NCBI GenBank assembly: GCA_029851415.1 | Contig: CM056741.1 | Span: 87,372,282-87,436,281, forward strand | Source of the DNA: Eretmocerus hayati | Lineage: Eukaryota > Arthropoda > Insecta > Hymenoptera > Aphelinidae | DNA length: 64,000 nucleotides | Direction: 5' to 3' | Shown here: piece by piece, positions 14,750 through 63,269 of the stretch | Layout: each line of letters begins with the position of its first letter | Position numbering within the stretch: the first letter of the stretch is position 1 | Made by a program: the position numbers and the translations under genes | The notes under the pieces: model-generated | Database searches by the model: none | Seen by the model: the letters and a program-made list of their open reading frames with translations, nothing else | What the model was told of the DNA's origin: nothing

Positions 14750-14793
14750 GGTTGACTTCTTGTTGAATGATCCAGCCACACTGTGTTCGCCTG

Positions 14794-14800
14794 CTTTATA
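14794..14800 (-). promoter_or_regulatory. TATA box of the left 150-aa gene
   Basis: TATAAAG on the minus strand, 51 nt upstream of the ATG at 14749; upstream lie GC-rich CCGCCGACGCCGC repeats. Confidence 0.6.
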
Positions 14801-16058: not shown

Positions 16059-16172
16059 GAACCCCCTCCCCTTGTACAGCTCGTTTGATCACAGAATCGA
16101 TGGCAGAATGGATCTTGGTCGAGGTATGCACTAGTCTGGAGAACCACATCCATCCTATGGCTCATATCCAGT

Positions 16173-17474: not shown

Positions 17475-17522
17475 CTTGTTTGAATGTTGAAGGAGTAATG
17501 TCTTCGTGATCGTGTTCATCTG

Positions 17523-17530
17523 TATTTATA
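17523..17530 (-). promoter_or_regulatory. TATA box of the FLYWCH gene
   Basis: TATAAATA on the minus strand, 56 nt before the chosen ATG at 17474 and only 4 nt before the upstream ATG; this spacing decides the start. Confidence 0.6.
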
Positions 17531-17557
17531 GTCGATTCCCTTGACAAATTCTAAGGG

Positions 17558-18400
17558 TCAATAGATATAGCCCGCGATGTACAAAGATTCCAAGATAGCT
17601 CTTATCTCATCATCATTATTTCGATTCCCAGCAAACTTATCTTCCATTAGGATGTGAAGTCTGCCGACTATCTTGTTAGGATCGTCCCAGTATATCCTTT
17701 TCGTCTGATTTGTCAGTAATCCACCAATTTTCTCAGAACCAAAAAGGGGCGCGATGATATTCCTGAATTTCCGGCTCTTGCTTCTGCGGAGTTCTCCATC
17801 ACGAAGGAATCTTTTTCGATGAACTTGCGAGACGTCTAGAATCTTCCGATAGTTTGCCATGTCTTCTTCGCTTATCACATTTTGATTTGGAACTTTTTTA
17901 AAGATTAATTCAAGAAGACCATGGGTGGTTGGGAAGCGCTCATTATCAACCTCGATGAGATTGTTCGTTAGGTGTATCCGCGATTTACCAATGACCAAGG
18001 AATTCCCATTCTTCCTGACTCCATATATTTTATCCAGATTCTCGTCATCTCTCCGAAGAATTGCCAAGTAGTCGTCAGGCTCACTGACTTCATCATCAGC
18101 TGTCTCGAAGGAGGTAGCCGATTCACTCCTGTCATCCCCTGAGAGGGTGTTATTTATAATAGTCTTATCGATTTCTTGCGAGTCTTCGACAGTATCGTCT
18201 GATATTCTCGGAGGAACTTGGATTCTCTCTTGCTGAGCTATGATTCTCTCGAGGGAATCTGTAATAGGTTCGAATGTGCCACTCATGTTCTTCTCAAACT
18301 CGGCTTGTTGGCGTTTTATCAACGCATACTCCCGTTTAAGCGCTCTTTTCATTCGTATGAGCTTGACTAATGTATCTCTTTGATTGAAGTAGTCCTCCAT
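17558..18400 (-). CDS. 280-aa coiled-coil protein with DUF8207-like C-terminal domain
   Basis: Residues 1-55 are a charged helical stretch (LVKLIRMKRALKREYALIKR) likely to form a coiled coil; 60-115 is an acidic linker. From about 120 on, the pattern YGVRKNG...LVIGKSRI, then RFPTTHGLLELIFKK, SEEDMANYRKIL, a basic patch RRSKSRKFRNIIAPLF and the final WDDPNKIVGRLHIL...EIRAILESLYIAGYI matches, from memory, a domain of unknown function (I believe DUF8207) common in insect and cnidarian genomes in mobile-element settings. The closing D-P-N...L...E-x2-I-x-E-L/S-x2-A-G-Y-I block is the clearest mark. I infer a structural or nucleic-acid-binding role in the element; no enzyme motif is seen. Confidence 0.68.
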   Translation of the reverse strand: MEDYFNQRDTLVKLIRMKRALKREYALIKRQQAEFEKNMSGTFEPITDSLERIIAQQERIQVPPRISDDTVEDSQEIDKTIINNTLSGDDRSESATSFETADDEVSEPDDYLAILRRDDENLDKIYGVRKNGNSLVIGKSRIHLTNNLIEVDNERFPTTHGLLELIFKKVPNQNVISEEDMANYRKILDVSQVHRKRFLRDGELRRSKSRKFRNIIAPLFGSEKIGGLLTNQTKRIYWDDPNKIVGRLHILMEDKFAGNRNNDDEIRAILESLYIAGYIY

Positions 18401-18454
18401 ACCGACAGTTCAATGTGGAGTGTTGGACTGAGAAGATCTCATGGGGAGGGAACA

Positions 18455-18461
18455 TTTTATG
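18455..18461 (-). promoter_or_regulatory. TATA-like box of the 280-aa gene
   Basis: CATAAAA on the minus strand, about 60 nt upstream of the ATG at 18400; weaker than the other two TATA boxes in the element but at a similar distance. Confidence 0.4.
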
Positions 18462-18622
18462 ACAGAGCACGGACGGCGCAGAGAGACTGTGGAATGGGGA
18501 ATATCATATGGAAACTTTGCAGGATGGATGGATGGTCGTAGGTTCTCCAAAAGTGCATACCGGGACCAAGATCCATTCTGCCATCCATTCTTTGATCAGA
18601 CCAGCTATACATGGGAATAGAG

Positions 18623-19572
18623 CTGTATACCACGCGGGGTACACGCATACTGCACGAACACCGCGCGAGATAGACGTATACCGCTCGAAGACCGCGCGGA
18701 ATAGACGTATACCGCACGAATACCGCGCGGGGTACACGTATACCGCACGAATACCGCGCGGGGTACACGTATACCGCACGAATACCGCGCGGGGTACACG
18801 AATACCGCGCGGGGCAGACGTATACCGCACGAATACCGCGCGGGGTAGACGTACACCGCACGAATACCGCACAGGGTACACGTATACCGCACGAATACCG
18901 CGCGGGGTAGAACTGTATACCGCGCGGGGTAGACGTACACCGCACGAATACCGCACAGGGTACACGTATACCGCACGAATACCGCGCGGGGTAGAACTGT
19001 ATACCGCGTGGGGTAGACGTACACCGCACGAATACCGCACAGGGTACACGTATACCACACGAGTACCGCGCGGGGTAGAACTGTATACCGCGCGGGGTAG
19101 ACGTACACCGCACGAATACCGCGCGGGGTAGACGTATACCGGACGAATACCGCACGGGGTAGCTGTACACCGCACGAATACCGCGCGGGGTAGACGTCCA
19201 CCGCACGAATACCGTATGAATACCGCGTGGGATAAACGTATACCGCACGAATACCGCGCGGGGTACACGTATACCGCACGAATACCGCGCGGGGTAGAAC
19301 TGCATACCGCGCGGGGTACACGTATACCGCACTAATACCGCGCGGGGTAGACGTATACCGCTCGAATACCGCGCGGAATAGACGTATACCGCACGAATAC
19401 CGCGCGGGGTACACGTATACCGCACTAATACCGCGCGGGGTAGACGTATACCGCACGAATACCGCGCGGGGTAGACGTATACCGCGCGGGGTACATGTAT
19501 ACCGCACGAATACCGCGCGGGGTACACGAATACCGCGCGGGGTACACGAATACCGCGCGGGGTAGAGCCGTA
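18623..19572 (-). repeat. 31-bp GC-rich palindromic array, right arm
   Basis: Inverted counterpart of 15060-16058. The same core words occur, but unit order and number differ. A longer-period block (about 130 bp, containing ATACCGCGYGGGGTAGAACT) is repeated about three times at 18900-19100, which is not seen in the left arm. Confidence 0.92.
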
Positions 19573-19832
19573 TAGTGAGTATAAGAAATTGAAAAATGAT
19601 GACTCTCATCAGAAACAGAAGATCGTTAAGCAGGCGTGATAGTATTGGAGGAGTAGAAATATTGGCTGTACTCCACAGGTGTGGGCGTGTCTGGGGCCCC
19701 CACCAATCCGACCTCTGCAGGTTGAGTCCTGCAACAACCAATGAGCAGCAGACTTTGAGATGCTGGCCAATGAGCGCTCAGCTGCGGCGTCGGCGGCTCG
19801 AGTTGCGGCGTCGGCGGCTCGGATTCTCAGGG

Positions 19833-19839
19833 TATAAAG
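19833..19839 (+). promoter_or_regulatory. TATA box of the right 150-aa gene
   Basis: TATAAAG, 51 nt upstream of the ATG at 19884; same spacing as in the left arm. Confidence 0.6.
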
Positions 19840-19883
19840 CAGGCGAACACAGTGTGGCTGGATCATTCAACAAGAAGTCAACC

Positions 19884-20336
19884 ATGGTATTCTGTTTCTT
19901 CGTCTGCGTTCATTTCCTCGATGAGGATGGGAATTCAAAGAGAGAAGAGAGAGTGGTATCCTATGGAGGCTATCCGGAATCAAAAGATTGGAAGATGATG
20001 CCTGGTGAAACAGCCATCAGTGTCAATTTCCATCGCGAGGATGATGCATGCAAGAAATGCGTTGAGACCGCACCCATAGACTACAATATACTAGATAACT
20101 CGCTATGGATTGCTGACGTCATCTTCTATAACTTCAAAATTGGCAAATACCAGGACTATCCCTCACTATCTATCATCGAAGATATCGATCGATATTTGAG
20201 AGATGATTGTGGGAGCACAAAACTGTATCTGCTCAGGTTAAGGAAATATGTGGAAACAATTCTGAGCAGTGGCATCAAAATGGATGATCATGTCCGTATC
20301 CAAGCGCTGGGCATAGACATCGTGGAAGAAGATTGA
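19884..20336 (+). CDS. 150-aa protein of the Polinton-type element, right copy
   Basis: Same protein as at 14297-14749 with no amino-acid change that I can see in the 150 residues (the one difference between arms, Gly to Val, lies in the upstream frame). Two intact copies in opposite directions suggest that the arms are kept alike by recombination or by copying during replication, or that the insertion is recent. Unknown function. Confidence 0.65.
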   Translation: MVFCFFVCVHFLDEDGNSKREERVVSYGGYPESKDWKMMPGETAISVNFHREDDACKKCVETAPIDYNILDNSLWIADVIFYNFKIGKYQDYPSLSIIEDIDRYLRDDCGSTKLYLLRLRKYVETILSSGIKMDDHVRIQALGIDIVEED

Positions 20337-20346
20337 ACAAAAAAAA

Positions 20347-20418
20347 GCCGAAACCCGGGATCGAACCGAGGACCTCATGGTTTGCTGACATGACGCTCTC
20401 CCACTGAGCTATTCCGGC
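20347..20418 (-). tRNA. tRNA-like gene in the right terminal repeat
   Basis: Inverted copy of 14215-14286, same boxes A and B, followed on its strand by a T run shared with the end of the 150-aa gene. Confidence 0.55.
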
Positions 20419-20477
20419 TGACACACACACACACACACATACACACACACAATTGTATATTTGGACGAAAGGGGGGT

Positions 20478-21584: not shown

Positions 21585-21934
21585 TGTAGTGTATTGCGGA
21601 TAGTTACACGTCAGAGTAAAGATGACACGCAGTGAAAGGAATGCAAGAAAGATCTTCACAGTATATTAATAGCAAATACGCATCGAACCATATATGGTAG
21701 TTTGAAGTCTGGTGAAAGGAGCTTGTAACAAGCACGGACTGGTACAACCAGGTACAGCCAAGTACGAGCTGGTACAGCACAGAGTATAAAAGATGCACCC
21801 ACTGTATAGCCAGTCAGACGGCACACGACCGGCAAGCCATACATACGGCTCCGTGTCCCTTGTATATCAATACTTAATAAAGTAGTTAGACGCCGATCTC
21901 ATCAAGTGCTTTACACCTTCTCCACAATACCACA
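21585..21934 (+). repeat. 5' LTR of the Gypsy element
   Basis: Contains a TATA-like GAGTATAAAAGATG at about 21782 and AATAAA at about 21876, the expected LTR promoter and poly(A) signals. Confidence 0.93.
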
Positions 21935-21935
21935 T

Positions 21936-21953
21936 TGGCGACGAGGATAAAAG
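21936..21953 (+). promoter_or_regulatory. primer-binding site
   Basis: TGGCGACGAGGATAAAAG follows the LTR after one T; TGG pairs with the CCA end of a tRNA. The tRNA was not identified. Confidence 0.65.
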
Positions 21954-22122
21954 AAGGAATCCGACGAGGATAAAAGGAAGCAAATCCGACGAGGATAAGC
22001 AGTACAGACATCCGACGAGGATATATACAGCATATCAAAAGCATCAATCTATCTGACGAAGATAGTAGAAGAGAGATCCGACGAGGATATACAGAAAAAT
22101 TAAAAGCCATCCGACGAGGATA
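21936..22122 (+). repeat. PBS-like motif repeated through the leader
   Basis: YCGACGAGGATA and close variants occur about seven times between the LTR and 22122, at irregular 20-50 bp spacing, the first being the primer-binding site itself. One copy has two changes (CTGACGAAGATA). Confidence 0.85.
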
Positions 22123-22363
22123 ACACAACAGAGCGCAGCTGGAGTGAGGAGAAAGGTCCCCCGCAGCATACAGCCACTGAACGTGGATACAGAGAGAAGC
22201 TAGAGAGAAGAAAGGTCCCCGCAGCATATACATACAGGTCCCAAATCAACGCATAAGGTGAGCGCCTACAAACAGCTTGGTCCCATAAATATACATCAAA
22301 ACATCGAATCAAGGCAAGAGTGGTAAGAGAGCCAGCCATAAAGTTGGTCGTAATTTAGCATTT

Positions 22364-23629
22364 ATGACTACTGTGGAAATACCTCCAGGTGATCATCCAG
22401 ACTTTACAGATTTAACGATTCAAACATTTACTAAACAAGAATTGATCGAATTATTGGCAAAATTTCCGGTAAAACTCCATCTCAATTTGGTCTCATTAGA
22501 AATTCTGAGGTCAATAGCAAGAAAAATACGCAGCGTACAGTTCTCAGCAAAAACTAAAGAAGTCAATATTTCTAAAGAAGGATTACGGGTTGTAGTACCA
22601 GAAGAAACAGAATCGAGTGGACAAACTGAACAAGCTTTAACACCACTGGCTAAGGCACCCCAACAAAATAGCATATCTGCAGAAACTCAAACGGTACAAG
22701 AACAAGTTTCCAGCCCAAATACAGATATGATGGAATCAATGGAATTCCATAAAAACAAGCAATCCTGGGATGACTACATTGAACGCATGGAACTCTATTT
22801 TACGGCAAATGATATTACATCAGATGATAAACAGGTAGCAACTTTGTTAACGAAATGCGGATCAGAAACATACAAGCTGATCAAAGATTTAGCAGCACCG
22901 AACCTCCCAAAAACCAAGAAATTTGAGGAGATAAAACTTTTAATGTCAGCTCATTTATGCCCGAAAAAAAGCAAACGCATGGAACGGAGCAAATTTCGTC
23001 AAGCTCATCAAAATGCAGGCGAATCTATAGCAGAGTATATCGCACGGCTGAAAGAATTGGCCATAAACTGCGATTTTACGGACTTGAACGACGCGCTGTG
23101 TGACCAACTGGTCACAGGTCTCACGGATCGAGGTACCAGAGTCGCACTATTCAGCGATAAAGATCTCACTTACTCAAAAGCAGTAGAAATTGCTACCACT
23201 CGTGAAGCAGCAGCGAGAGATGCAGCAACCACTGAACGACATCGAAGCAACACTTCAATTCAACACGTCGCAGCACATCGATACAACAAGCCAACGAGTA
23301 AAGTTACTCAGACAGGTAAAAGCGAATTTAATAATAGATCGCGCACAAAATTTTGTTATTGTTGCGGAATAGGCAATAGCCACTACACAAACGACTGTCG
23401 TTACAGAGACAGAAAATGCACTTTTTGTCAGAATCAAGGGCATCTCGAAAAAGCATGTATCAAAAAACATGGAAAGAACAAAATTTTTGGTAAGTCCAGT
23501 AAAAATCGTTTTGAGAATAGAGACAATCGGGATGAACGTAATAGGCAAGTAAAAGTTCTACAAACTGAATCGGATGATGAAGATACGGTTTCAAACACAG
23601 ATTTTTTCCAAATATCAGAATGTTCTTGA
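22364..23629 (+). CDS. gag: gag polyprotein of the Gypsy element
   Basis: 421 aa. The central part (about 125-300) has the usual LTR-element capsid features: W-x-D-Y-x-x-R at about 137, an LLTKCG helix, then RSKFRQAHQNAGESIAEYIA. Two Cys-His knuckles lie at the C-terminus (about 345-380): C-x2-C-x5-H-x4-C (one residue longer than canonical) and CTFCQNQGHLEKAC, a canonical C-x2-C-x4-H-x4-C. Packages element RNA in cytoplasmic particles. ATG context TTTATGA; no earlier in-frame start downstream of the leader was seen. Ends TGA at 23627-23629; pol continues in the same frame. Confidence 0.9.
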   Translation: MTTVEIPPGDHPDFTDLTIQTFTKQELIELLAKFPVKLHLNLVSLEILRSIARKIRSVQFSAKTKEVNISKEGLRVVVPEETESSGQTEQALTPLAKAPQQNSISAETQTVQEQVSSPNTDMMESMEFHKNKQSWDDYIERMELYFTANDITSDDKQVATLLTKCGSETYKLIKDLAAPNLPKTKKFEEIKLLMSAHLCPKKSKRMERSKFRQAHQNAGESIAEYIARLKELAINCDFTDLNDALCDQLVTGLTDRGTRVALFSDKDLTYSKAVEIATTREAAARDAATTERHRSNTSIQHVAAHRYNKPTSKVTQTGKSEFNNRSRTKFCYCCGIGNSHYTNDCRYRDRKCTFCQNQGHLEKACIKKHGKNKIFGKSSKNRFENRDNRDERNRQVKVLQTESDDEDTVSNTDFFQISECS

Positions 23630-26600
23630 CAAAACATCAAAGCAGAACCATTATATTTTGACTTAACAATAGATAATATTCAAGTCAAAATGGAATTAGA
23701 TACAGGTACATATGTTTCAGTCATATCCGAAACCGATAAGAATAGAATCTTTCCAAAATTACCTCTGAGAGAATGTGATCTCAAACTCAAGAGTTACGGT
23801 GGAACACCACTTCATCCTATTGGAAAACTAGAATCATTAAAAATAGTATTGAATGGAATGAGTAAAATTTTGGACATCTACGTTATTAAAGGCAAAGGAC
23901 CAATTCTGTTGGGTAGACAATGGCTAGCAGCTTTTGGACTTTGGCCGTTAAAATTGTGGAAAAATACAAATTCCTCGAATATTCTACAAATACAGAGTGA
24001 GGACATCAGAAAGCAAATACTTGAAAAATTTCCAATCCTTTTTTCGAACACTCAAGGGTGTTACAAAGGTAGGAAGATACATTTGGTCTTTAAAGAAGAC
24101 GCAAAACCGATACAAATGAAGCCATATCACGCGCCATTCGCTTTAACAGAGAAAATCTCCAAAGAGTTAGACAGACTTGTGAAACTAGGCAATCTAGAAC
24201 CGGTTTCCTGTAGTAAATGGGCAACACCCATTATCCCAGTTCTGAAAAAGAATGGTGAGGTACGCATCTGTGGAAATTTCAAAATGACGGTTAATCCACA
24301 ATTAATAATCAGAAGACATCCCATTCCTCTGAAAGAGAAAATTTTTCATACGCTACGAATAGGGAATAGATGGTCTCAGATCGACCTGACACACGCATTT
24401 ATGCAATTTCAACTCGATGACGAATCGAAAGACGCCCTGACGATTATTTCACACGAAGGGTTACACAGATACACACGCTTAGGGGAAGGTATAGCCTCAA
24501 ATCCCGCAGAAGTACAGGATATTTTAGAAGACGTCCTGAAAGGTATAGATCATACAGAGATCTATATAGATAATATATATTGCACAGGAGAAACAGATTC
24601 TGAGCATTTACATATACTGACACAAATTTTTGAACGATTGCAAGACGCAGGCTTACGCGTAAACCTAGGAAAATGTGATTTTTTCAAAGATGAAATTGAA
24701 ATTCTAGGCTTTGTTATAGACAAAGAAGGGCTAAAGCCAAGTCATTCTAAGGTAGACGCAATTACGAAAGCGCCAACACCAAAAAATTCGAAGGAACTAG
24801 AAGCTTTTTTAGGTCTCGTAAACTTTTATGAAAGATTCTTAACAGATAGAGCGGAACACATTTATCCTCTCTATAATCAAATCAAACACAAAAATTGGAC
24901 TTGGACAAACGAATGTCAGAATGCATTTGATTGGATCAAGAAAGAAATTTCTTCAAATAAAGTTTTAGCAATCTACGATCCAAACGTAAAACTCGTCATG
25001 GCATGTGATGCTAGTGACGTCGGTGTTTCAGCAATTTTGTCGCACAGGTACGAAGACGGTTCTGAGAAACCTATAGCATTCGCATCCAAAATAATTCCAA
25101 AATCCGAGAAACATAGAGCAATAATCGATAAGGAAGCAGGAGCAATCATTTTCGGTTTCAAAAAATTTCATCAATACGTTTACGGGAATCACATTATTCT
25201 GAAAACTGACAATGAAGCTTTGAAATATATTTTTGGCAATAAAGATATGTCAAAAATGCTAAACAGCAGGCTATTACGCTGGGCATATTTTTTATCAGGC
25301 TACAGATATACCATCGAAGTAGTAAAATCAAAAGCTAACGGAAACTGCGATGCGCTTTCTAGGTTACCGATCGCAGACACAACACCGGTATTCGAAACAG
25401 AATACACAAACATCAATTGTATACAGAATGAATGCACAATTATTGATTTCCCAAAAGTTGTAAAAGCAACTTCACACGACAAGATATTGAGAAAGGTCAT
25501 ATCATACATACAGACGTCATGGCCTAAAATAGAAACATTGAATGACATAGAGAAAAGCATTCATCATAGAAGACACGAAGTGAGCTTTGAACAAGGATGT
25601 TTGTCTTGGGGTTACAGAATAATAATTCCAGAAACTTTACAGAGAAACATACTCGATGAACTTCATTCTTCACATCTTGGTATAGTAAAGATGAAGCAAA
25701 TAGCACGCAATTATTTTTGGTGGCCACATATTGATAAAGATATTGAACGAATTGCGAATTCGTGTAGAATCTGCCTATCAACACGAGCAGAACCACGAAA
25801 AGTACCACTTACACCGTGGCAATGGCCTAGTCAACCTTGGTCACGTATTCACATTGACTTTATGGGTCCATTTTACAATTTCATGTTTTTGATCATCGTG
25901 GACGCACATTCCAAATGGCCAGAAGTGATTAACATGAAAAAGGACACAACTTCTTACAACCTGATACGGAAGCTAGACGAAATTTTTTCGCGTTATGGTC
26001 TCCCTCACCACATAGTGAGCGATAACGGTCCACAACTAACGAGCCACGAATTCGGAAAATATTTGAAGCAATACAAGATAAAACATACATTTTCAGCACC
26101 TTATCATCCTGCTACTAACGGAGCAGCAGAAAATTTTGTCAAAACGGTCAAACACAAAGTAGACAAAATGATTAAAGAAGGTCATTCACTAGAATTTTCG
26201 ATAAATAGATTTTTGAGTGATTATAGGAACACGGAACATTCGACAACAAACAGAACACCAGCAAATCTATTTCTCAAAAGAGATTTGCGCACAAGATTTG
26301 ATTTATTGATTCCTAATTCAATTAGCGATGTTGAAAAACACCAATTTGATCAAGCACGACACAAGCAGGGAAACAGACAAATACAATTTGTAGAGAATGA
26401 GATTGTTTTTGTGAACGATTATAGAACGCACTCTGAGAATAGGACGCAAGCGAAGATTGTAAGACAACTATCTCCTATAATGTATGAAATAAAATTCAAT
26501 GACGGGTATATTACAAAACGACACGCAAATCAAATTGTCAGAACTCAACTAGAACCTACTTCAAGAGGAGGGGAGTTGATATGTGATGATAATTTTGAAA

Positions 26601-26725
26601 ATTCATATGTACACCCAAATGTTTCGAAAAAATGTAAGAACAAATTGTACCCTGGAAATGATCGAAATGTACCGAGACGTTCGTCTCGAATTGCTAAAAA
26701 AGCAGCGACCCGATCTCAAAAATAA
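23630..26725 (+). CDS. pol: pol polyprotein (protease, RT, RNase H, integrase)
   Basis: Read directly after the gag TGA in the same frame; the first Met (23690) is probably not the start. Protease: LDTG at 23696-23707. Reverse transcriptase: template block with RICGNFK, first Asp block SQIDLTHAFMQ; the Y-x-D-D box reads YIDN (24563-24574), losing the second Asp, and the block before it reads LGEGIASNPAEVQ, unlike the LPFG...F-Q pattern of the family. RNase H: ACDAS, DKEAG and KTDNE keep D-E-D. Integrase: zinc-binding H-H-C-C region ending SCRIC, then the Asp of HIDFMGPF, the Asp of VSDNGPQ and the Glu of NGAAENFVK (DDE intact). Without the second RT Asp, DNA synthesis is expected to fail, so this copy is likely immobile although young. 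Ends TAA at 26723. Confidence 0.9.
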   Translation, partial: QNIKAEPLYFDLTIDNIQVKMELDTGTYVSVISETDKNRIFPKLPLRECDLKLKSYGGTPLHPIGKLESLKIVLNGMSKILDIYVIKGKGPILLGRQWLAAFGLWPLKLWKNTNSSNILQIQSEDIRKQILEKFPILFSNTQGCYKGRKIHLVFKEDAKPIQMKPYHAPFALTEKISKELDRLVKLGNLEPVSCSKWATPIIPVLKKNGEVRICGNFKMTVNPQLIIRRHPIPLKEKIFHTLRIGNRWSQIDLTHAFMQFQLDDESKDALTIISHEGLHRYTRLGEGIASNPAEVQDILEDVLKGIDHTEIYIDNIYCTGETDSEHLHILTQIFERLQDAGLRVNLGKCDFFKDEIEILGFVIDKEGLKPSHSKVDAITKAPTPKNSKELEAFLGLVNFYERFLTDRAEHIYPLYNQIKHKNWTWTNECQNAFDWIKKEISSNKVLAIYDPNVKLVMACDASDVGVSAILSHRYEDGSEKPIAFASKIIPKSEKHRAIIDKEAGAIIFGFKKFHQYVYGNHIILKTDNEALKYIFGNKDMSKMLNSRLLRWAYFLSGYRYTIEVVKSKANGNCDALSRLPIADTTPVFETEYTNINCIQNECTIIDFPKVVKATSHDKILRKVISYIQTSWPKIETLNDIEKSIHHRRHEVSFEQGCLSWGYRIIIPETLQRNILDELHSSHLGIVKMKQIARNYFWWPHIDKDIERIANSCRICLSTRAEPRKVPLTPWQWPSQPWSRIHIDFMGPFYNFMFLIIVDAHSKWPEVINMKKDTTSYNLIRKLDEIFSRYGLPHHIVSDNGPQLTSHEFGKYLKQYKIKHTFSAPYHPATNGAAENFVKTVKHKVDKMIKEGHSLEFSINRFLSDYRNTEHSTTNRTPANLFLKRDLRTRFDLLIPNSISDVEKHQFDQARHKQGNRQIQFVENEIVFVNDYRTHSENRTQAKIVRQLSPIMYEIKFNDGYITKRHANQIVRTQLEPTSRGGELICDDNFENSYVHPNVSKKCKNKLYPGNDRNVPRRSSRIAKKAATRSQK
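26563..26578 (+). promoter_or_regulatory. internal polypurine-tract copy
   Basis: AAGAGGAGGGGAGTTG lies within the pol frame, about 160 bp before the real tract, which has the same sequence. Confidence 0.5.
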
Positions 26726-26737
26726 GAGGAGGGGAGT
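26725..26737 (+). promoter_or_regulatory. polypurine tract before the 3' LTR
   Basis: AGAGGAGGGGAGT directly precedes TGTAGTG; primer for plus-strand DNA. Confidence 0.75.
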
Positions 26738-27087
26738 TGTAGTGTATTGCGAATAGTTACACGTCAGAGTAAAGATGACACGCAGTGAAAGGAATGCAAG
26801 AAAGATCTTCACAGTATATTAATAGCAAATACGCATCGAACCATATATGGTAGTTTGAAGTCTGGTGAAAGGAGCTTGTAACAAGCACGGACTGGTACAA
26901 CCAGGTACAGCCAAGTACGAGCTGGTACAGCACAGAGTATAAAAGATGCACCCACTGTATAGCCAGTCAGACGGCACACGACCGGCAAGCCATACATACG
27001 GCTCCGTGTCCCTTGTATATCAATACTTAATAAAGTAGTTAGACGCCGATCTCATCAAGTGCTTTACACCTTCTCCACAATACCACA
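26738..27087 (+). repeat. 3' LTR of the Gypsy element
   Basis: 350 bp, one base different from the 5' LTR, followed by GCACC. Confidence 0.93.
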
Positions 27088-46806: not shown

Positions 46807-48434
46807 GGATTGAACTGGGACCTTTGGGTTATGAGACTGCGATCTTGTCCACTCGGCCAGAAGCTCGTGCTACGCGGGGTGGCTTAATATGCCTTCCTGA
46901 CCCTCGACTATGGAGAGATATAAGTTCTATCTATAGTTCCGTCTTATATTTGTTGAAAATAGGAATAAGTATAATAATTTGAGAAGCTGTGATTTGGCTG
47001 TGCAATAAATAATTGACCAGGATGTGCGTGCACCGCATTGCACGGACTTTGCATTCCAAAATTCAAAAATCTATAGATAATAACGATGGTTATTAAAAGA
47101 GGCTGTCTTTCAAAAACGAAAATTCGTGTGAGCAAGAAATTAGAATTTCGATTTCTCCCATTAATATTTATCGAACATTTTTCGTGTTCACGGTTGTTCT
47201 CAGTCAACAGACTGGTATCAACCAGGGTGGATCTCGTAATTTAGCATTCTGTGTATATTGATTTATCGTAAATTACGAGCATATATTACTCGCTTGTCAA
47301 TTTGAAATTTAAGATTTATGATTCAATCAAATGTCCATTATGATCAGGAATTATAATATCCAAAAAAGATCAGGAGTATGGGGATCGTCATTTATATTGT
47401 ATATTCCATCGCAAAATCATCTTGGAAAAACATTCATGTGGAAGCAAAACCTACGTCTTACTGAAATGAGATCAATGTTTCATTTGAGTATTCGTGACAA
47501 GAAGTCTTAGAAAGATATTATTAATAACATGCCATTTACTTGCGGGACTAAATTATTCTAAAATGTCCACTGAAAGACGTAGAAAAAACGTCCTACAGAC
47601 TTGAAAATGAGACGCTTTTGAGACGTTAGTAACGCGATGTCCAAAGAACGTCAGTATCGTGTCTTTTATAAGACATCGAACCGATGACTGAAACCAAACG
47701 TTCAAAGGACGTTCTTTGGAAGACATAATCTGAATGTCCGACTTCGGACATTTTTTGCTGGTGATTCGGACATCCATTTTGAGGTTATGAAATCATGTCC
47801 GGAAAAAATCATCATTTGAACATCCTGATTCCGGGCCTGTTCAGACACGAGAATCAGATGTCCAAAAGTCGTCCACTAGTCGACATTCGAACGTACAAAA
47901 GATGTCATGACATCGCACATAAAAATAATGTCCTCGGAACGTCCGATGTCCGGTGAATGCTAGCTGGGAGGCTTCACCGACACGAAACTGGGACGCTCGT
48001 GTGCGTAAGAGGCGTGGATCGCGTTGGCTTTACGGAGATTGAATGTGCCACGCACACTACTTTAACATTTTTCACATACTACGAGAGGGGATGAAGGAGG
48101 CGGAGTCAGTCCTCCTTCCTTTCAGAAGCTGTGAGCCAGCGTCGATCTAGCCGAGAACACCCCAGAGCCTCTAAGTGGCCAACTCTGGAAGTGTAGCTGT
48201 ATCCTGATAGAAACTAAATTCGGCAACGGCGAAAGCCCGGAGTTTACGCTCCTTCTCTCTACCCTCCCTAGGTTCACTGGTTTGCACCACATAACACCTA
48301 CCACGGAAGAAGCGCAAGCCCAATGCTATAGTGTGACAACAAGTGGTGTGGGGTACATAATACCTCACATGCGCAATAGATGGATGACAGATCCAGCTCC
48401 TTTCCCGCAATCGACGGCTCAAGACCTCAATTAG

Positions 48435-48442
48435 TATATAAG
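48435..48442 (+). promoter_or_regulatory. TATA box in the 5' LTR
   Basis: TATATAAG starts 37 nt before the ribozyme cleavage site (48471/48472), so the transcript would start at about the first base of the ribozyme. The same box is in the 3' LTR at about 49041-49048. Confidence 0.6.
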
Positions 48443-48466
48443 AGCGCATAAGTGCTTCATCGCCAA

Positions 48467-48549
48467 GCGTCCAGGGCACCACCTGCAACACCAGCCCTGC
48501 TGATGAGTCCGGTTACGATGAACCAGGTTGCAGGTGGGGGACGAAACGC
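48467..48549 (+). ncRNA. type III hammerhead ribozyme, copy 1
   Basis: Helix III GCG-U pairs with A-CGC at the ends; cleavage triplet GTC at 48469-48471; helix I CAGGGC (48472-48477) with GCCCTG (48494-48499); core CTGATGA 48500-48506; helix II GTCC (48507-48510) with GGAC (48539-48542); core GAAA 48543-48546. Every conserved core base is present. Loop 1 (48479-48489, CCACCTGCAAC) is fully complementary to part of loop 2 (48527-48537, GTTGCAGGTGG), far longer than usual loop contacts. Loop 2 also has a small hairpin GGTT-ACGATG-AACC. Self-cleavage releases element RNA monomers. Confidence 0.88.
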
Positions 48550-48621
48550 ATAAGAGCCTTCTGCTCAAAGCGTGTAGAGTCATTCATTAGTAGTGGATAA
48601 GCCATCAGCTTATTCTTACAT

Positions 48622-48638
48622 TGGTAACCCGCGACGTG
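48622..48638 (+). promoter_or_regulatory. primer-binding-site-like sequence
   Basis: TGGTAACCCGCGACGTG one base after the LTR end; TGG would pair with a tRNA CCA end. The tRNA is not identified. Confidence 0.55.
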
Positions 48639-48938
48639 ATTGAAACGCAACTTTCATGGAGTCAGATCAGTCTGAAGCATATACTCATTACGAGTACGCT
48701 CAGTAAAAGCCTTTCCTCATTTACATTTGATCACTTGCTAAGCGCCGTTGTACCGCGACACGCAGTAGTAACCTAGAGGCATTGCGACTTCGGTTCTGCT
48801 GCGGCGCGAGTCGCGGAATGCGATGTCACGGTGAATTCGCTCTCGGCATTCGCAGCTATAATGCGGTGTCATGTATATTGAGTGATAAGTGCAAAATTAA
48901 TAACTGTAAAATCATCCCTTGAACGCTATGGCTCTGAA

Positions 48939-48952
48939 GCGGGGGGAGTGGC
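48939..48952 (+). promoter_or_regulatory. polypurine tract
   Basis: GCGGGGGGAGTGGC directly before the 3' LTR; mostly purine. Confidence 0.5.
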
Positions 48953-49228
48953 TGTGGGGTACATAATACCTCACATGCGCAATAGATGAATGATAGATCC
49001 AGCTCCTTTCCCGCAATCGACGGCTCAAGACCTCGATTAGTATATAAGAGCGCATAAGTGCTTCATCGCCAAGCGTCCAGGGCACCACCTGCAACTCCAG
49101 CCCTGCTGATGAGTCCGGTTACGATGAACCAGGTTGCAGGTGGAGGACGAAACGCATAAGAGCCTTCTGCTCAAAGCGTGTAGAGTCATTTCATTTAGTA
49201 GTGGATAAGCCATCAGCTTATTCCTACA
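48953..49228 (+). repeat. 3' LTR of the retrozyme-like element
   Basis: 276 bp; a few substitutions and small indels against the 5' LTR. Confidence 0.8.
49073..49155 (+). ncRNA. type III hammerhead ribozyme, copy 2
   Basis: Same fold as copy 1: GTC cleavage after 49077, helix I CAGGGC/GCCCTG, CTGATGA 49106-49112, helix II GTCC/GGAC, GAAA at 49149-49152. Changes from copy 1 lie only in loops (ACACCA to ACTCCA; GGTGGGGG to GGTGGAGG), leaving the core and the 11-base loop match intact. Cleavage at both copies gives a 606-nt RNA (48472-49077). Confidence 0.88.
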
Positions 49229-49711
49229 ATGGAGCGCCGCCATTCATTCTGGCAACCCCCTCTCTGCGCTGAAAGCTAGAGGTAGTACAGATGGAGCAGA
49301 GCGTAATCTATATGTACAACCTCTATCATTTGTGCGACTCTGGAGCAGCTGAACCACGATTCTAAAAGAAAGGTCTGCCGACTCAGTGGCGTGGATAGGA
49401 AACATGGTTGATGCCTTCTCTCCCCTCCAGCTCCCCTTTCCTGAGCCAATATGGCAGCCGTACTGGGACAGCGGGATATACCTATATATAGGAGTCGTCT
49501 GCTCGCGCTCGTGTAAAGCCGCGAGCTCGCGCCAAAGAACATTCTATCCTATTTGCAGCGTGCAAAAATGATATTAATCACTCGCAGCATGTTAGCTGAT
49601 AACATGTCGCAAGTAATTACTTCTAAATACTGGGTTCCATTACCCAAATCTCAAGCCCCCCCCCCGGGGGGCCGCGATTTATATACGTCTTTTGATATGT
49701 ATTCAGTAAGT

Positions 49712-56039: not shown

Positions 56040-59000
56040 AACTATTTTCCGAAGTCGATGGAGTCTTATTCCACGGTGATGTCGAAAAGTCAATGCCGAT
56101 CGATATCCAATGACCGAAATTCGTGAGGAGGTGAATCGATGCTCGAGCTGTAGTCGACGCTCGCTATGATTCAGAGCAGATGTAAGGAATTTGCCAATTT
56201 TAGTCAAACTACAGACCAATCGACAACTTGTTCCTCCCCATCACACGTTTTAGTCGCCGGAGATGTTGGGAAGTTAATGCTCATTGATATCCAGTGACAG
56301 AAATTCGCGAGAAGATGACCCGACGCTCGAGCCGTAGTTGAGGCTCGCTAAGATTCAGAGCAGATGTGAGGTATTTGCAGATTTTAATCAAATTACACAA
56401 TAATAAACCTTTTGTCTCTTTCGTTCACACGATTTTGTGGACGGGGATGTCGAGAAGTCAATGCCGATCGATATCCAATGAACGGAATTCGCTAGGAGAT
56501 GACTCGATGCTCAAGCTGTAGTCGACGCTCGCTATGATTCAGAGCAGATGTGAAGAATTTGCGGATTTTAATTAAACAACAGACTAATCAACAACTTGTT
56601 TCTCCCCATCACACGATTTTATCGCCGGAGATGTTGGGAAGTCAATGCTCATTGATATCCAGTGACAGAAATTCGCGAGAAAATGACCCGACGCTCGAGC
56701 CGTAGTCGCCGCTCGATAAGAATCAGAGCAGACGTAAGAGATTGCGGATTTTAATCAAACTACACACTGATTAACCTTTTGTCTCTTTCATTCACACGAT
56801 TTTGTTGACGGGGATGTCGAGAAGTCAATGCCGATCGATATCCGATGAACGAAATTCGCGAGAAGATGACTCGATGCTCGAGCTGTAGTCGACGCTCGCT
56901 GAGATCCAAAGCAGACGTAAGAAATTGCGGATTTTGCTCAAACTACAGACTCATCGATAACTCGTCTCTTCCATTCGCACGATTTTGTTGACGGAGATGT
57001 TGTAGAGTCAATGCTCATCGATATCTGATAATAGAGATTCGCGAGTAGATCACTCGATGCTCGAGCTGTAGTCGACGCTTGCTAAGATTCAGAGCAGATG
57101 TAAGGAATTTGTGGATATTAATCAAACAATAGACTAATCGACAACTTGTTTCTTTTATTCACACGAATTTGTCGACGGGGATGTCGAAAAGTCAATGCCA
57201 ATCGATATCCAATGACCGAAATTCGCGAGAAGATTGCTCGAGCTGTAGTCGACGCTCGCTAAGATCCAAAGCAGACGTAAGAAATTGCGGATTCTGATCA
57301 AACTGCAGACTAATTGACAATTTCTCTCGTTCATTCACACGATTTTGTTAAAGGGGATGTCGGAAAGTCAATGCCGATCGATATCCAATGACCGGAATTC
57401 GTGAGGAGATGACTCGATGCTCGAGCTGTAGTCGACGCTCGCTAAGATTCAGTGCAGATGTAAGGAATTTGCGGATTTTAGTCAAACTACAGACCAATCG
57501 ACAACCTGTTCCTTCACATCACACGATTTAGTCACCGGAGATGGTGGGATGTCAATGCTCATCGATATCTAGTGACAGAAATTCGCGAGAAGATGACCCG
57601 ACGCCCGAGCCGTAGTTGACGCTCGCTAAGGTTCAGAGCAAATGTGAGGAATTCGCGGATTTTAATCAAACTACACACTACTAAACCTTTTGTCTCTTCC
57701 ATTCACACGATTTTGTTGACGGGGATCTCGAGAAACCAATGCCGATCGATGAAAATGGACGAAATTCGCTAGAAGATGACTCGATGCTCAAGCTGTAGTC
57801 GACGCTCGCTATGATTCAGAGCAGATGTGAAGAATTTGCGGATTATTCAAACAACAGACTAATCGACAACTTGTTTCTTCCCATCACACGATTTCATCGC
57901 CGGAGATGTTGGGAAGTCAATGCTCATTGATATCCAGTGACAGAAATTCGCGAGAAGATGACCCGACGCTCGAGCCGTAGTCGCCGCTCGATGAGAATCA
58001 GAGCAGATGTGAGGTATTTGCAGATTTTAATCGAACTACACAATAATAAACCTTTTGTCTCTTTCGTTCACACGATTTTGTGGACGGGGATGTCGAGAAG
58101 TCAATGCCGATCGATATCCGATGAACGAAATTCACGAGAAATTGACTCGATGCTCGAGCTGTAGTCGACGCTCGCTGAGATCCAAAGCAGACGTAAGAAA
58201 TTGCGGATTTTGCTCAAACTACAGACTCATCGATAACTCGTCTCTACCATTCGCACGATTTTGTTGACGGAGATGTTGTAGAGTCAATGCTCATCGATAT
58301 CTGATAATAGAGATTCGCGAGTAGATCACTCGATGCTCGAGCTGTAGTCGACGCTTGCTAAGATTCAGAGCAGATGTAAGGAATTTGGGGATATTAATCA
58401 AACAATAAACTAATCGACAACTTGTTTCTTTTATTCACACGATTTTGTCGACGGGGATGTCGAAAAGTCAATGCCAATCGATATCCAATGACCGAAATTC
58501 GCGAGAAGATTGCTCGAGCTGTAGTCGACGCTCGCTAAGATCCAAAGCAGACGTGAGAAGTTGCGGATTCTGATCAAACTACAGACTTCTTGACAATTTG
58601 TCTCGCTCATTCACACGATTTTGTTAAAGGGGATGTCGAAAAGTCAGTGCTCATTGATATCCAGTGACCGTAATTCGCGAGACGAGGACCCGACGCTCGA
58701 CCCGTAATCGATGCTCGCTAAGGTTCAGAGCAGATCTAAGGAATTTGTGGATTTTAATCAAACAACAGACTTATCGACAACTTGTTCCTTCCAGTTACAC
58801 GATCTCGTTGACGGAGATGTCGGAAAGTCAATTTTCATCGATATCTTATAATAGAAATTCGCGAGACGAGGACCCGACGATCTAGCCGTAGTCGACGCTC
58901 GCTAAGATTCAAAGCAGACGTAAGAAATTGCGGATTTTGATCAAACTACAGACTAATTGACATTTTGTCTCTTACATTCACACGATTTTGTCGCCGGAGA

Positions 59001-59700
59001 TGTTGGGAAGTCAATGCTCATCGATATCTTATAATGGTGATTCGCGAGACGAGGACCCGACGCTCGAGCCGTAGTCGACAATCGCTAAGATTCAAAGCAG
59101 ACGTAAGAAATTGCGGATTCTGATCAAACTGCAGACTAATTGACAATTTGTCTCTTTCATTCGCACGATTCCGTTGACTGGGATGTCGAAAAGTCAATGC
59201 CGATCGATTTTCAATGACCGGAATTCGCGAGACGAGGACCCGACGCTCGAGCCGTAGTCGACGCTCGCTAAGATTCAAAGCAGACGTAAGAAATTGTGGA
59301 TTCTGATCAAATCACAGACTGATTGACAATTCATCCCTTTCATTCACACGATTTTGTTGCCGGAGATGTCGAAAAGTCAATGCCGATCGCTATCCAATGA
59401 TCGAAAATGGCGAGAAGATGACTCGATGCTCGAGCTGTAGTCGACGCTCGCTAAGATCCAAAGCAGACATAAGAAATTGCGGATTTTGATCAAACTACAG
59501 ACTAATTGACAACTTGTCTCTTCCATTCACACAATTATGTCGCCGGACATGTTGGGAAGACAATGCTCATTGATATCTGATAATACAGATTCGCGAGGAG
59601 AGCACTCGATGCTCGAGCTGTAGTCGACGCTTGCTGAGATTCAGAGCAGATGTAAGGAATTTGTGGATTTTAATCAAACTACAGACCAATTGGAAAACTT
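56040..59700 (+). repeat. 183-bp satellite, plus-oriented block
   Basis: About 20 units of roughly 183 bp with GCTCGAGCTGTAGTCGACGC as the fixed word and CACACGATTTTGT between. Two types alternate in places (GACGGGGATGTCGAAAAG...GCCGATCGATATCC versus GCCGGAGATGTTGGGAAG...GCTCATTGATATCC), giving a dimer of about 366 bp. Confidence 0.93.
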
Positions 59701-59950
59701 GTACCACAAAATCCTGCGGATGACAGGGAGAGGGTAATGAGGGCTCTGGCGTTCGATCACAATCCACTGACTCTATAATGCACCGAACGGCGGAGGGCGT
59801 CGACTACCTCTCGAGCATCGAGTCATCTTCTCGCAAAGCCTGGTCCTCCGGGATTGATCTTCAGCAACTTTGCGACATCACTGTCGACGAAATCGTGTAA
59901 ATAGAAGAGAGAAGCGGGAAATTATTTTGCAACCTATTGAAATCCGGGAA
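59700..59950. other. turning point between the two 183-bp blocks
   Basis: Orientation of the satellite flips here. Partly unique: CCTGCGGATGACAGGGAGAG at 59713 and TGGTCCTCCGGGATTGATCT at 59841 are not found in the units. Confidence 0.7.
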
Positions 59951-62900
59951 TTCTTAAATTTCCCTTGAATTTTAAGGAACGTCGATTACCGCTCGAGCGT
60001 CGGGTCCTCGTCTCGCGAATCTCTATTATTAGATATCGATCGGCATTGACTTTTTGACATCCCCGTCAACAAAATCGTATGAATGGAAGGAACAAGTGGT
60101 TAGATAGTCTGTATGTTTATCAAAATCCACAAATTCTTACGTCTGCTTTGAATCTTAGCAAGCGTTGACTACAGTTCGAGCATCGAGTCATCTTCTCGCA
60201 AATTTCTGTCACTGGATATCAATGAGCATTGACTCTTCAACATCCCCGTTAACAAAATCGTGTGAATGGAAGAGACAAGTTGTCAATTAGTCTGTAGTTT
60301 GATCAAAATCCGCAAAATCCTTACATCTGCTTTGGATCTTAGCGAGCGTCGACTACAGCTCGAGCATCGAGTCATCTTCTCGCGAATTTCGGTCATTGGA
60401 TATCGGTCGGCATTGACTTTCCGACATCCCCGTCGACAAAATCGTGTGAATGGAAAAGACAAAAAATTGATTAGTGTGTAGTTTCATTAAAATCCGGAAA
60501 TTTCACACATCTGATCTGAATCTTAGCGAGCGTCGACTACGGCACGAGCGTCGGGTCCTCGTCTCGCGAATTTCGGCCATTGGATATCGATCGGCATTGA
60601 CTTTCAAACATCCCCGTCGACAAAATCGTGTGAATGAGAGAGACAAGTGGTTAATTAGTCTGTAGATTGATTAAAATCCGCGAATTCCTCACATCTGCTC
60701 TGAATCTTAGCGAGCGTCGACAACAGCTCGAGCACCGAGTCATCTTCTTGCGGATTTCTGTCACTGGATATCAATGAGCATTGACTCCCTAACATCTCCG
60801 GCGACAAAATCGTGTGAATGAAAAAACAAAGTTGTCGATTAATCTGTCGTTTGATTAAATTCCGCAAATTCCTTACATCTGATCTGAATCTTAGCGAGCG
60901 TCGACTACAGCTTGAGGATCGAGTCATGTTCTCACGAATTTCGTTCATTGGATATCGATCGGCATTGACTTTTCGACATCCCCGGCGGAAAAATCGTGTG
61001 AATGAGAGAGGCAAGTGGTGAATTTGTCGGTAGATTGATCAAAATCCGCAAATTCCTTACATCTGCTCTGAATCTTAGCGAGCGTCGACTACAGCTTGAG
61101 CGTCAAGTGATCTTCTCGCGAATCTCTATTATCAGATATCGATGAGCATTGACTTTACAACATCTCCGTCAACTAAATCCTGTGAATGAAAGAGACAAGT
61201 TATCGAAGAGTCTGTAGTTTGATCAAGATCCGCGATTTCTTACGTCTGCTTTGATTCTTAGCGAGCGTCGACTACGGCTCGAGCGTCGAGTCCTCGTCCC
61301 GCGAATCTCTATTATAAGATATCGATGAGCATTGACTTTCCGCCATCTCCGTCTAGTAAATCGTGTGAATCAAAGAGACAGAATGTCGATTCGTCTGTAG
61401 TTTGATTAAGATCCGCAGATTCCTCACATCTGCTCTGAATCTTAGCGAGCGTTGACTACAGCTCGAGCGTCGGGTCATCTTCTCGCGAATCTCTATCATT
61501 AGATATCGATGAGCATTGACTTTACAACATCTCCGTCAACAAAATAGTGGGAATGGAAGAGACAAGTTATCGATGAGTCTGTAGTTCGATCGAAATCCGC
61601 AATATCTTATGTCTGCTCTGAATCTTAGCGAGCGTCGACTACAGCTCGAACATCGAGTCACCTCCTCGCGAATTTCTGTCACAAGATATCAATGAGCATT
61701 GACTTCCCACCATCTCCGGCGACAAAATCGTGTGGATGAAAGAGACAAGTTGTCGGTAAGTCTGTTAGTTGATTAAAATCCGCAAATTCCTCACATCTGC
61801 TGTGGATCTCAGCGAGCGTCGACTACGGCTCGAGCGTCAGGTCCTCATCTCGCTACTTTCGGTCATTGGATATCGATCGGCACTGACTTTTCGACATCCC
61901 CGTTGACAAAATCGTGTGAATGAGAGAGACAAGTGGTTAATTAGTCTGTAGATTGATTAAAATCCGCACATTCCAAACATCTGCTATGAATCTTAGCGAG
62001 CGTCGACTACAGCTCGAGCACCGAGTCATCTTCTTGCGAATTTCTATCACTGGATATCAATGAGCATTGACCTCCCAACATCTCCGGTGACAAAATCGTG
62101 TGAATGAAAGAAACAAGTTGTCGATTAGTCTGTCGTTTGATTACAATCCGCAGATTCCTTGCATCTGCTCTGAATCTTAGCGAGCGTCGACTACAGATTG
62201 AGCATTGAGCCATCTTCTCGCGAATTCCGTTCATTGGATAGCGATCGGCATTGACTCTTCGACATCCCCGGCGAAAAAATCGTGTGAATGAGAGACAAGT
62301 AGTTAATTAGTCGGTAGATTGATTACAATCCGCAAATTCCTTACATTTGCTCTGAATCTTAGCAAGCGCCGAGTACAGCTCGAGCATCGAGTGATCTTCT
62401 CGCGAATCTATATTATCAGATATCGATGAGCATTGACTTTACAACATCTCCGTCAACAAAATCGTGTGAATGAAAGAGACAAAATGTCGATTAGTCTGTA
62501 GTTTGATCAAAATCCGCAAATTCCTTACATCTGCTCTGAATCTTAGCGAGCGTCGACTACAGCTCGAGCATCGAGTCATCTTCTCGCGAATTTCTTTCTT
62601 CGGATATCAATGAGCATTGACTACCCAACATCTCCGGCGACAAAATCGTGTGAATGGAAGGAAAAAGTTGTCGATTAGTCTGTTGTTTGATTAAAATCCG
62701 CAAATTCCTTACATCTGCTCTGAATCTTAGCGAGCGTCGACTACAGCTCCAGCATCGAGTCACCTTCTCGCGAATTTCGTTCATTAGATATCGATCGGCA
62801 TTGACTTTTCGACATCCCCGTCAACGAAATCGTGTGAATGAAAGAGACAAAAGGTTGATTAGTGTATAGTTTGATTAAAATCCGCGAATCTCTCACATCT

Positions 62901-63240
62901 GCTCTGAATCTTAGCGAGCGTCGACTACGGCTCGAGCGTCGGGTCATCTTCTCGTGAATTTCTATCATCAGATATCGATGAGCATTGACTTTACAACATC
63001 TCCGTCAACAAAATAGTGTGAATGAAAGAGACAAGTTATCGAAGAGTCTGTAGTTTGATCAAAATCGGCAATTTCTTACGTCTGCTTTGAATCTTAGCGA
63101 GTGTCGACTACGGCTCGAGCGTCGGGTCCTCGTCCCGCGAATCTCTATTATTAGATATCGATGAACATTGACTTTACAACATCTCCGTCAACAAAATCGT
63201 GTGAATGAAAAAGACAAAATGTCGATTAGTCTGTAGTTTG
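59780..63240 (-). repeat. 183-bp satellite, minus-oriented block
   Basis: About 19 units, reverse orientation of the block at 56040-59700, with both unit types (GACATCCCCGTC and AACATCTCCGGCG). Confidence 0.93.
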
Positions 63241-63269
63241 ATTAAAATCCGCAAATTTCTTTTCCTTCT

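Follow-up and report, generated by a model that had tools for sequence, protein, structure and literature searches.

A putative long terminal repeat retrozyme with type III hammerhead ribozymes in the genome of the hymenopteran Eretmocerus hayati

Introduction

Can a long terminal repeat (LTR) retrozyme with type III hammerhead ribozymes belong to an insect genome? The question is raised by an 882-bp element at positions 48347-49228 of a 64,000-nucleotide stretch of Eretmocerus hayati DNA (assembly GCA_029851415.1, contig CM056741.1, positions 87,372,282 to 87,436,281, forward strand), hereafter the window, which sits on the contig denoted C1 of the 692-Mb, 17-contig assembly. In the cited sections of three reports, LTR retrozymes with type III hammerheads come from plants, whereas non-LTR retrozymes with type I hammerheads come from animals (PMC7229834, PMC7761336, PMC11722881). 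A preliminary description of the locus, made from its letters, had drawn the same contrast in agreement with these reports and had proposed an insect LTR retrozyme. The reading favored here, with a probability of about 0.72, is likewise that of an insect LTR retrozyme: a non-autonomous LTR retrotransposon of the size of a terminal-repeat retrotransposon in miniature (TRIM), with a type III hammerhead in each LTR and a circle-based cycle.

Results

Anatomy of the window element

The features of the element, all on the + strand, are as follows.

48343..48346, +: left target-site flank GTGG, one half of the target-site duplication (TSD), matching the right half in 3/4 positions (flank reading)
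48347..48620, +: 5' LTR, 274 bp, TGTGGGG...TTACA (LTR alignment)
48435..48442, +: TATATAAG, putatively TATA-box-like, starting 37 nt before the first post-cleavage base
48467..48549, +: type III hammerhead of the 5' LTR, with stems I, II and III of 6, 4 and 4 bp; predicted cut after 48471
48479..48489, +: loop I pairing strand CCACCTGCAAC, complementary to 48527-48537
48527..48537, +: loop II pairing strand GTTGCAGGTGG
48621..48952, +: noncoding internal region, 332 bp
48622..48641, +: primer binding site (PBS), a variant of what we take to be the complement of the tRNA-Trp 3' end
48936..48952, +: G-rich polypurine-type tract GAAGCGGGGGGAGTGGC
48953..49228, +: 3' LTR, 276 bp (LTR alignment)
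49041..49048, +: TATATAAG copy of the 3' LTR
49073..49155, +: type III hammerhead of the 3' LTR; predicted cut after 49077, giving a predicted 606-nt unit, 48472-49077
49229..49232, +: right target-site flank ATGG

The two LTRs align over 276 columns, of which 6 are mismatches and 2 are gaps, with a unit spacing of 606 nt; both LTRs start with TGTGGGG and end with TACA, thus conforming to the TG...CA type. The PBS-type sequence TTGGTAACCCGCGACGTGATTG adjoins the 3' end of the first LTR, and GAAGCGGGGGGAGTGGC lies directly 5' of the second. Element size, LTR lengths, termini and PBS are therefore as first described. The purine tract announced before the second LTR is present there as well, in a G-rich rather than purely purine form. 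The longest ATG frame of the element encodes 58 amino acids, while the longest frames of 200 shuffled sequences average 67, in keeping with the earlier statement that no protein frame is present. The window copy is flanked by GTGG and ATGG, an imperfect TSD that the preliminary description had not mentioned. The element thus combines the features by which a TRIM is recognized (LTRs, length below 1 kb, noncoding sequence, PBS and polypurine tract [PPT]). It also exhibits two features of plant-type LTR retrozymes, namely one type III hammerhead per LTR and a noncoding internal region with PBS and PPT, while the hallmarks of metazoan non-LTR retrozymes (a type I hammerhead in a tandem repeat devoid of LTR, PBS and PPT) are not those of this element.

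Detection of the hammerheads

The window hammerhead comprises stem III (GCGU/ACGC), a cut after C, stem I (CAGGGC/GCCCUG), the core CUGAUGA, stem II (GUCC/GGAC) and GAA. Both LTRs matched the Rfam type III hammerhead model RF00008 over 54/54 model positions, at 33.5 bits each and an E-value of 3.7e-5 in a 1-kb stretch. A strict structural rule applied to the window recovered these two sites on the + strand and none on the − strand, and 100 mononucleotide-shuffled windows contained no hit. One complete hammerhead per LTR had been claimed at the outset, along with cleavage after 48471 and an RNA-motif search as a check; that search returned both LTRs below the gathering score, the strict rule agreed, and the same cleavage position is predicted here, as is the corresponding one after 49077.

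A dispersed family with target-site duplications

A search of the E. hayati genome with the element, in which 40 of 331 candidates were scored so that all counts are lower bounds, returned at least 73 matches, at least 27 of which spanned element positions 1-882. These 27 rows correspond to 26 loci, one trimer accounting for two rows, and are referred to as family A; they exclude L005b (a copy of family D, described below, with mis-set LTR ends) and an L022 row with a partial third LTR, while L041, a repeat of L005, was skipped. An exact 4-bp TSD, as in plant-type LTR retrozymes, was present at 19/26 loci and a 3/4 match at five, including the window copy; the chance of at least 19 exact TSDs at p 1/128 is about 6e-35. 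The two loci without a TSD are L022, scored on the inner LTR of a multi-LTR locus, and L027, where the right LTR end had been set 3 nt short and the flank, corrected by eye, still yielded no match. Further LTR-structured copies, for which the preliminary description had proposed a search, are thus numerous. A 21-nt hammerhead core, CAGCCCTGCTGATGAGTCCGG, occurred 325 times in the genome with up to 2 mismatches, as compared to 0 for the reversed pattern. Exact pattern scans of viral contigs and prokaryote genomes returned 0 matches. A chance local duplication, which had been named as the reading that could overturn the proposal and would here include a chance hammerhead, is refuted by these genome copies, their exact TSDs and the core matches; nothing was found in its favor, and its probability is practically negligible.

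Outer LTR pairs differed by 0 substitutions at seven loci (L003, L005, L006, L007, L009, L014 and L017) and by up to 28 elsewhere, so some insertions are recent. Fourteen loci with a single ribozyme were also fetched (L090-L103, all on C1). Six of these contain a full-length LTR, three with exact TSDs, one with a 3/4 match and two with a PPT directly upstream; the last two are accordingly 3' LTRs of broken copies. Among the 14/26 family A loci compared, LTRs were 92-99% and internal regions 85-99% alike, ranges which suggest recombination between A subfamilies.

The strict hammerhead fold was kept in 43 of the 53 LTRs at the 26 loci: all LTRs were intact at 18/26 loci, one LTR at 6/26 and none at 2/26. 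These counts were summed over the per-locus rows because a separate list of 127 ribozyme hits includes duplicates from overlapping loci. In nearly all intact family A ribozymes, TATATAAG lies 37 nt before the first post-cut base.

Related families and multimeric copies

Two further families, B and D, exhibit the same anatomy, B with a 250-bp LTR, a 517-bp unit and a whole element of 767 bp, and D with a unit of 479-480 bp. Exact TSDs were found for B (GTGG, TTTG and ATTT) and D (CCGC and ACGG), that is, at 5/5 B and D elements with both ends read (L086 lacks one end), and at an A-type locus with a 635-bp unit (L089; ACAT). Comparison of A with B gave identities of 73/83 in the ribozyme, 55/111 on its 5' side and 33/53 on its 3' side, against a mean of 42% and a maximum of 48% for A and shuffled B; on this alignment, no part of the LTR is as well conserved between the two families as the ribozyme. 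Counted by eye, TATATAAG lies 36 nt before the first post-cut base in family B.

A family B array at C4:92.85 Mb consists of five LTRs and four internal regions, (LTR-INT)x4-LTR, within an outer TSD of ATTT/ATTT. The first four LTRs are identical, with 2 differences in LTR5; among the internal regions, the first three are identical as well, and a one-base length difference at the PPT end is all that distinguishes the fourth. As judged from its sequence, such a tetramer would be expected from a reverse transcriptase that keeps copying a circle. The family A trimer L017, whose middle LTR differs by 3 substitutions, was examined as possible proof that the template was a circle and did not qualify as such.

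A search of the genome with RF00008 started from 143314 first-look candidates, scored 68 of them and yielded 12 hits at E<=10 (8 below 0.01), the best at 40.5 bits and E 6.5e-5. All 12 are below the gathering score, and 7/14 control genomes also gave hits at E<=10. Read structurally, the hits constitute a third, unrelated ribozyme family, C, with the stem lengths of A; family C accordingly rests on this structural reading and not on score. At L045 (e.g., 900-2100), one of the family C loci (L042-L053), the type III hammerhead occurs in 511-bp tandem arrays; no LTR, PBS or TATA box was seen by eye at L045 or L050. Family C is a candidate satellite-like type III retrozyme of this genome, similar in its tandem layout to metazoan non-LTR retrozymes but with a type III hammerhead.

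Complementarity between loops I and II

In family A the two loops measure 16 and 28 nt, and CCACCTGCAAC in loop I and GTTGCAGGTGG in loop II are complementary over 11 nt by Watson-Crick pairing, perfectly so in 39/43 intact LTRs. The plant-type contact, with short loops and non-Watson-Crick interactions, is not what is seen here. In their commonest forms, families B and C pair over 12 and 9 nt, respectively (4-9 nt overall in C); the loops of C are unrelated in sequence, yet complementary too. One loop pair is A-U in family A, whereas the alignment has G-C in its two family B rows. Across 18 close sequences, 94.8% of cells pair, a level reached by 7/500 shuffles, while slid controls gave 34-44%.

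Two of the possible roles of this complementarity are a pseudoknot of the active ribozyme and a conserved off-switch helix that prevents recutting of the circle. The loop-pairing helix is present in the predicted minimum of the 89-nt motif, the 606-nt monomer and the circular fold, as an off-switch would have it. None of the pairing bases belongs to a hammerhead stem, which on paper allows the pairing and the stems to form together, and the 6-bp stem I and 4-bp stem II fit the two-base-pair stem difference that goes with pseudoknots in type III hammerheads according to the cited section of Perreault et al. (PMC3088659). A pure off-switch is therefore considered unlikely, and the ribozyme is probably pseudoknotted; on folding grounds the loops may pair as a pseudoknot while the ribozyme is active, as a helix that blocks it once the RNA is mature or, possibly, in both ways in turn.

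Primer binding sites and a candidate Ty3/Gypsy helper

Three PBS forms follow the 5' LTR at the 26 loci: TGGTGACCCCGACGTGATT at 7/26, a form beginning TGGTAACCCGC at 17/26 and TGGTAACTTCC at 2/26. The first fits what we take to be the 3' end of tRNA-Trp. An exact 18-mer of the PBS, TTGGTGACCCCGACGTGA, occurred 47 times in the genome (reversed control, 0). By position, 22/47 sites were taken as non-retrozyme; 20 were fetched with 1 kb each, together with L104, and C4:118323158 was left out. Eighteen of the 20 share the LTR end ...CCCACA followed by ACTTGGTGACC, or a close form, and their 300 nt upstream contain no CTGAYGA and no GGACGAAAC. Of the remaining two, L121 is a retrozyme and L125 something else; as L121 lacks CTGAYGA and has GGACGAAAC, the core test misses decayed ribozymes.

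One of these copies, from C2:88461966, has LTRs identical over 251 aligned nt, a TSD of ATCG/ATCG (boundary by eye) and a PPT with GGGGGG. It encodes reverse transcriptase, RNase H and integrase domains, with a protease match just below the Pfam cut-off, and its upstream frame, gag by position, contains DUF7041; on these domains it is taken for a Ty3/Gypsy element. Because PBS, G-rich PPT, 4-bp TSD and LTR start (TGTRGGG) are shared, this tRNA-Trp-type Ty3/Gypsy element is the likely helper of the retrozymes. In exact-form copies the PBS is identical over 18 nt, so that sharing of PBS and PPT with a Ty3/Gypsy element of the same genome, a further plant-type feature, is seen here, and a Gypsy element with the same PBS, which the preliminary description had suggested looking for, exists.

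At L104 (C3:114568061), a helper-type LTR end is followed by a stretch, longer than a PBS, that we interpret as the complement of the 3' half of tRNA-Trp. It looks like primer tRNA copied into DNA, and the continuation of the LTR end into a tRNA-Trp-like complement partially supports tRNA-Trp as the primer of the L104 element.

In the textbook LTR cycle, the tRNA itself serves as template for part of the PBS in each new copy, and a PBS that does not match it should accordingly fade. The variant PBS persists in copies with identical LTRs (L006, L007, L009 and L014), which is suggestive of an RNA-circle cycle; an isodecoder tRNA matching TGGTAACCCGCG, or simple tolerance, could explain the variant as well.

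These PBSs also bear on whether the insect acquired a plant LTR retrozyme by horizontal transfer. In favor of such a transfer, the layout, the 4-bp TSDs and the link to Ty3/Gypsy are the same as in plants, and the size is similar, according to the cited section of PMC4918200. A PBS of tRNA-Trp rather than tRNA-Met type argues against it, for which reason the element is not filed in the plant lineage itself, and so does the long Watson-Crick loop pairing as compared to the non-Watson-Crick contact given for plants in the cited part of PMC7936874; a plant origin by transfer is very improbable.

The window itself contains another Gypsy element, at 21585-27087, with gag and pol frames and LTRs of ∼350 bp (21585-21934 and 26738-27087, ends by eye) that are 98% alike over 300 nt. 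It was rejected as the helper, with a PBS of TTGGCGACGAGGAT and a 5-bp TSD, GCACC. The closest match of its pol is a protein of the sawfly Diprion similis (68% identity, 100% query coverage), and the named proteins among the first 28 pol matches are 14/14 hymenopteran, as would fit an insect, probably hymenopteran, host.

Other features of the window

Positions 1-7448 hold a tandem array of about 17 copies of a 430-bp unit, with a tRNA-like stretch in several copies. A 6.3-kb palindromic element occupies 14182-20451; its 907-nt inverted repeats are 100% complementary, each with an ARAGORN tRNA-Cys, and an open reading frame with a FLYWCH zinc finger lies between them. A satellite of 183-184 bp (also 367) forms two inverted arrays at 56073-63261.

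Discussion

LTRs, TSDs, PBS, PPT, conserved ribozymes, several young and multimeric copies and a compatible Ty3/Gypsy element are all seen in the DNA. The insect LTR retrozyme initially proposed thereby gains the support of a dispersed family with TSDs, PBS and PPT, conserved hammerheads and a plausible helper. In the cycle envisaged, transcription from the 5' LTR would start ∼30 nt downstream of TATATAAG, a few nucleotides before the ribozyme cut, and double self-cleavage of the transcript would release the 606-nt unit. A host ligase, probably of RtcB type, would close this RNA into a circle with one LTR, PBS and PPT, on which tRNA-Trp would prime the Ty3/Gypsy reverse transcriptase, possibly for more than one round. 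As the enzyme can run round the circle more than once, two LTRs could be rebuilt without a repeated R. Integration of the resulting cDNA, as one unit or as a multimer bounded by LTRs, would fall to the Gypsy integrase and leave a 4-bp TSD. Once the circle has matured, the two loops may instead pair over 11 bp as a nested helix and so block the ribozyme.

Several observations weigh against this reading. The case is known here from DNA, so that cleavage, circular RNA and mobilization are predictions. The hammerhead matches, at 33.5 bits, lie below the RF00008 gathering score of 48.5, for which reason a gathering-level Rfam scan of the window returned four tRNA-like matches and no hammerhead, while an E-value scan of 48300-49300 recovered both; presumably, the large loops cost score. 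The loop pairing is shorter in some copies (6 strict pairs plus G-U in family D, 4 to 9 in C), and the pair counts are weak in that only 2 pairs change on both sides, which 128/500 shuffles reached; further pair types were reached by 463/500 shuffles and the covariation score by 20/500. Nested folding without pseudoknots gave −33.4 kcal/mol for a blocked fold compared to −18.0 for the nested hammerhead, and with the blocked fold as the free-energy minimum, fast cleavage is not assured; the steric fit of 11 bp between two closed loops would also be in question. Between A and the closer family D, identity in the ribozyme (75/83) is little above that of the 5' side (101/120), though above that of the 3' side (42/69). 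Multimers can also arise by LTR-LTR recombination, which would keep the outer TSD, and at L017 the outer LTRs are identical while the internal parts differ by 4 substitutions and 1 gap. Two kinds of departure from the exact tRNA-Trp complement occur, one in 17 of the 26 PBSs and the other in two. Beyond the shared short features, BLAST detected no long similarity between the helper LTR and the retrozymes, and by eye the helper PBS starts 3 nt after the LTR as compared to 1 nt in the retrozymes.

Some of these points would suit an ordinary TRIM that a Gypsy helper moves through the conventional linear-RNA cycle of LTR elements. No circle would then be formed, and the hammerhead would be a passenger or do no more than trim transcripts. 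The ribozyme is blocked in its most stable nested fold, and A-D divergence on its 5' side about equals that within it. All the LTR hallmarks match animal TRIMs, ant TRIMs also having 4-bp TSDs in the cited section of PMC3532108, and that of PMC10886601 reports Helenus TRIMs from Hymenoptera as well as a Gypsy element of Nasonia with a tRNA-Trp PBS. However, an ordinary TRIM does not readily account for a ribozyme that is the best conserved LTR part between A and B and is intact in at least one LTR at 24/26 loci, nor for a tetramer with its own TSD. In addition, the linear cycle depends on a repeated R, which a ribozyme so close behind the predicted start would eliminate. An ordinary TRIM is therefore regarded as improbable, and the insect LTR retrozyme is preferred.

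The systems closest to this element are each like it in part. Plant LTR retrozymes, in the cited sections of Cervera, Urbina and de la Pena 2016 (PMC4918200), are likewise noncoding, with a ∼600-800-nt unit between two type III hammerheads in LTRs, 4-bp TSDs and PBS and PPT resembling Ty3/Gypsy, and tandem copies and single LTRs occur there too (PMC11722881, in part). The E. hayati element differs in its animal host, its tRNA-Trp-type PBS (tRNA-Met in the plant elements of these sections), its long Watson-Crick complementarity between loops I and II and its shorter LTRs (250-276 bp, as against 300-400 bp). Metazoan non-LTR retrozymes share the animal genome, the hammerhead-delimited unit and the predicted small circular RNA, but as covered in the cited section of Cervera and de la Pena 2020 (PMC7229834) theirs is a type I hammerhead in tandem 150-450-bp repeats with no LTR, PBS or PPT.

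The hymenopteran TRIMs PbTRIM (PMC3532108) and Helenus (PMC10886601) are, in the cited sections, short noncoding LTR elements with PBS, PPT and 4-bp TSDs, some Helenus having a tRNA-Trp PBS. In contrast to the present element, the words hammerhead and ribozyme occur nowhere in the PbTRIM text as consulted, and Helenus LTRs carry tRNA-like sequence (PMC10886601, in part); in 48300-49300, no tRNA family at E<=10 and no ARAGORN tRNA was found. The pseudoknotted type III hammerheads described from HDV-like RNAs and from the genomes of termites and dipterans resemble the present ribozymes in being animal, partly insect, and in their Watson-Crick pairing of loops I and II (PMC7936874, PMC3088659, cited sections), but they reside in HDV-like RNAs or, in termites, are isolated motifs (PMC7936874, same section); termites and flies are reported there to have them, and none was found in the hymenopterans which that study searched. 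Finally, the Ty3/Gypsy elements with tRNA-Trp PBS share PBS, G-rich PPT, 4-bp TSD and a TGTRGGG LTR start (one copy fully examined), and are unlike the retrozymes in being coding and, in 18 copies, in lacking CTGAYGA and GGACGAAAC in the 300 nt before the PBS.

By title or the start of the abstract, no animal LTR retrozyme was found among the papers listed by full-text searches of the open-access literature, in some cases the top entries of longer result sets, a scope outside which most subscription journals and preprints lie. One lead against novelty is that the cited section of PMC7761336 mentions type III hammerhead elements in bacteria or insects, referenced and "in preparation."

A wider proposal, put forward tentatively and at somewhat less than even odds, is that LTR retrozymes arose independently in animals. 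Several insect families would parasitize tRNA-Trp-primed Ty3/Gypsy elements via ribozyme-made circles, with the cut site adjoining the transcription start, multimeric cDNAs such as the B tetramer, persisting PBS variants and pseudoknotted ribozymes of the same class in the 511-bp tandem family. If the insect LTR retrozyme is real, the rule by which LTR and type III retrozymes belong to plants and non-LTR and type I retrozymes to animals would fall. A second, probably independent origin would allow testing of what a retrozyme needs, including a circle template, a dispensable R and helper choice through the PBS, in an animal system with young copies. It would also offer a natural hammerhead with unusually long loop complementarity for study as a pseudoknot or a switch.

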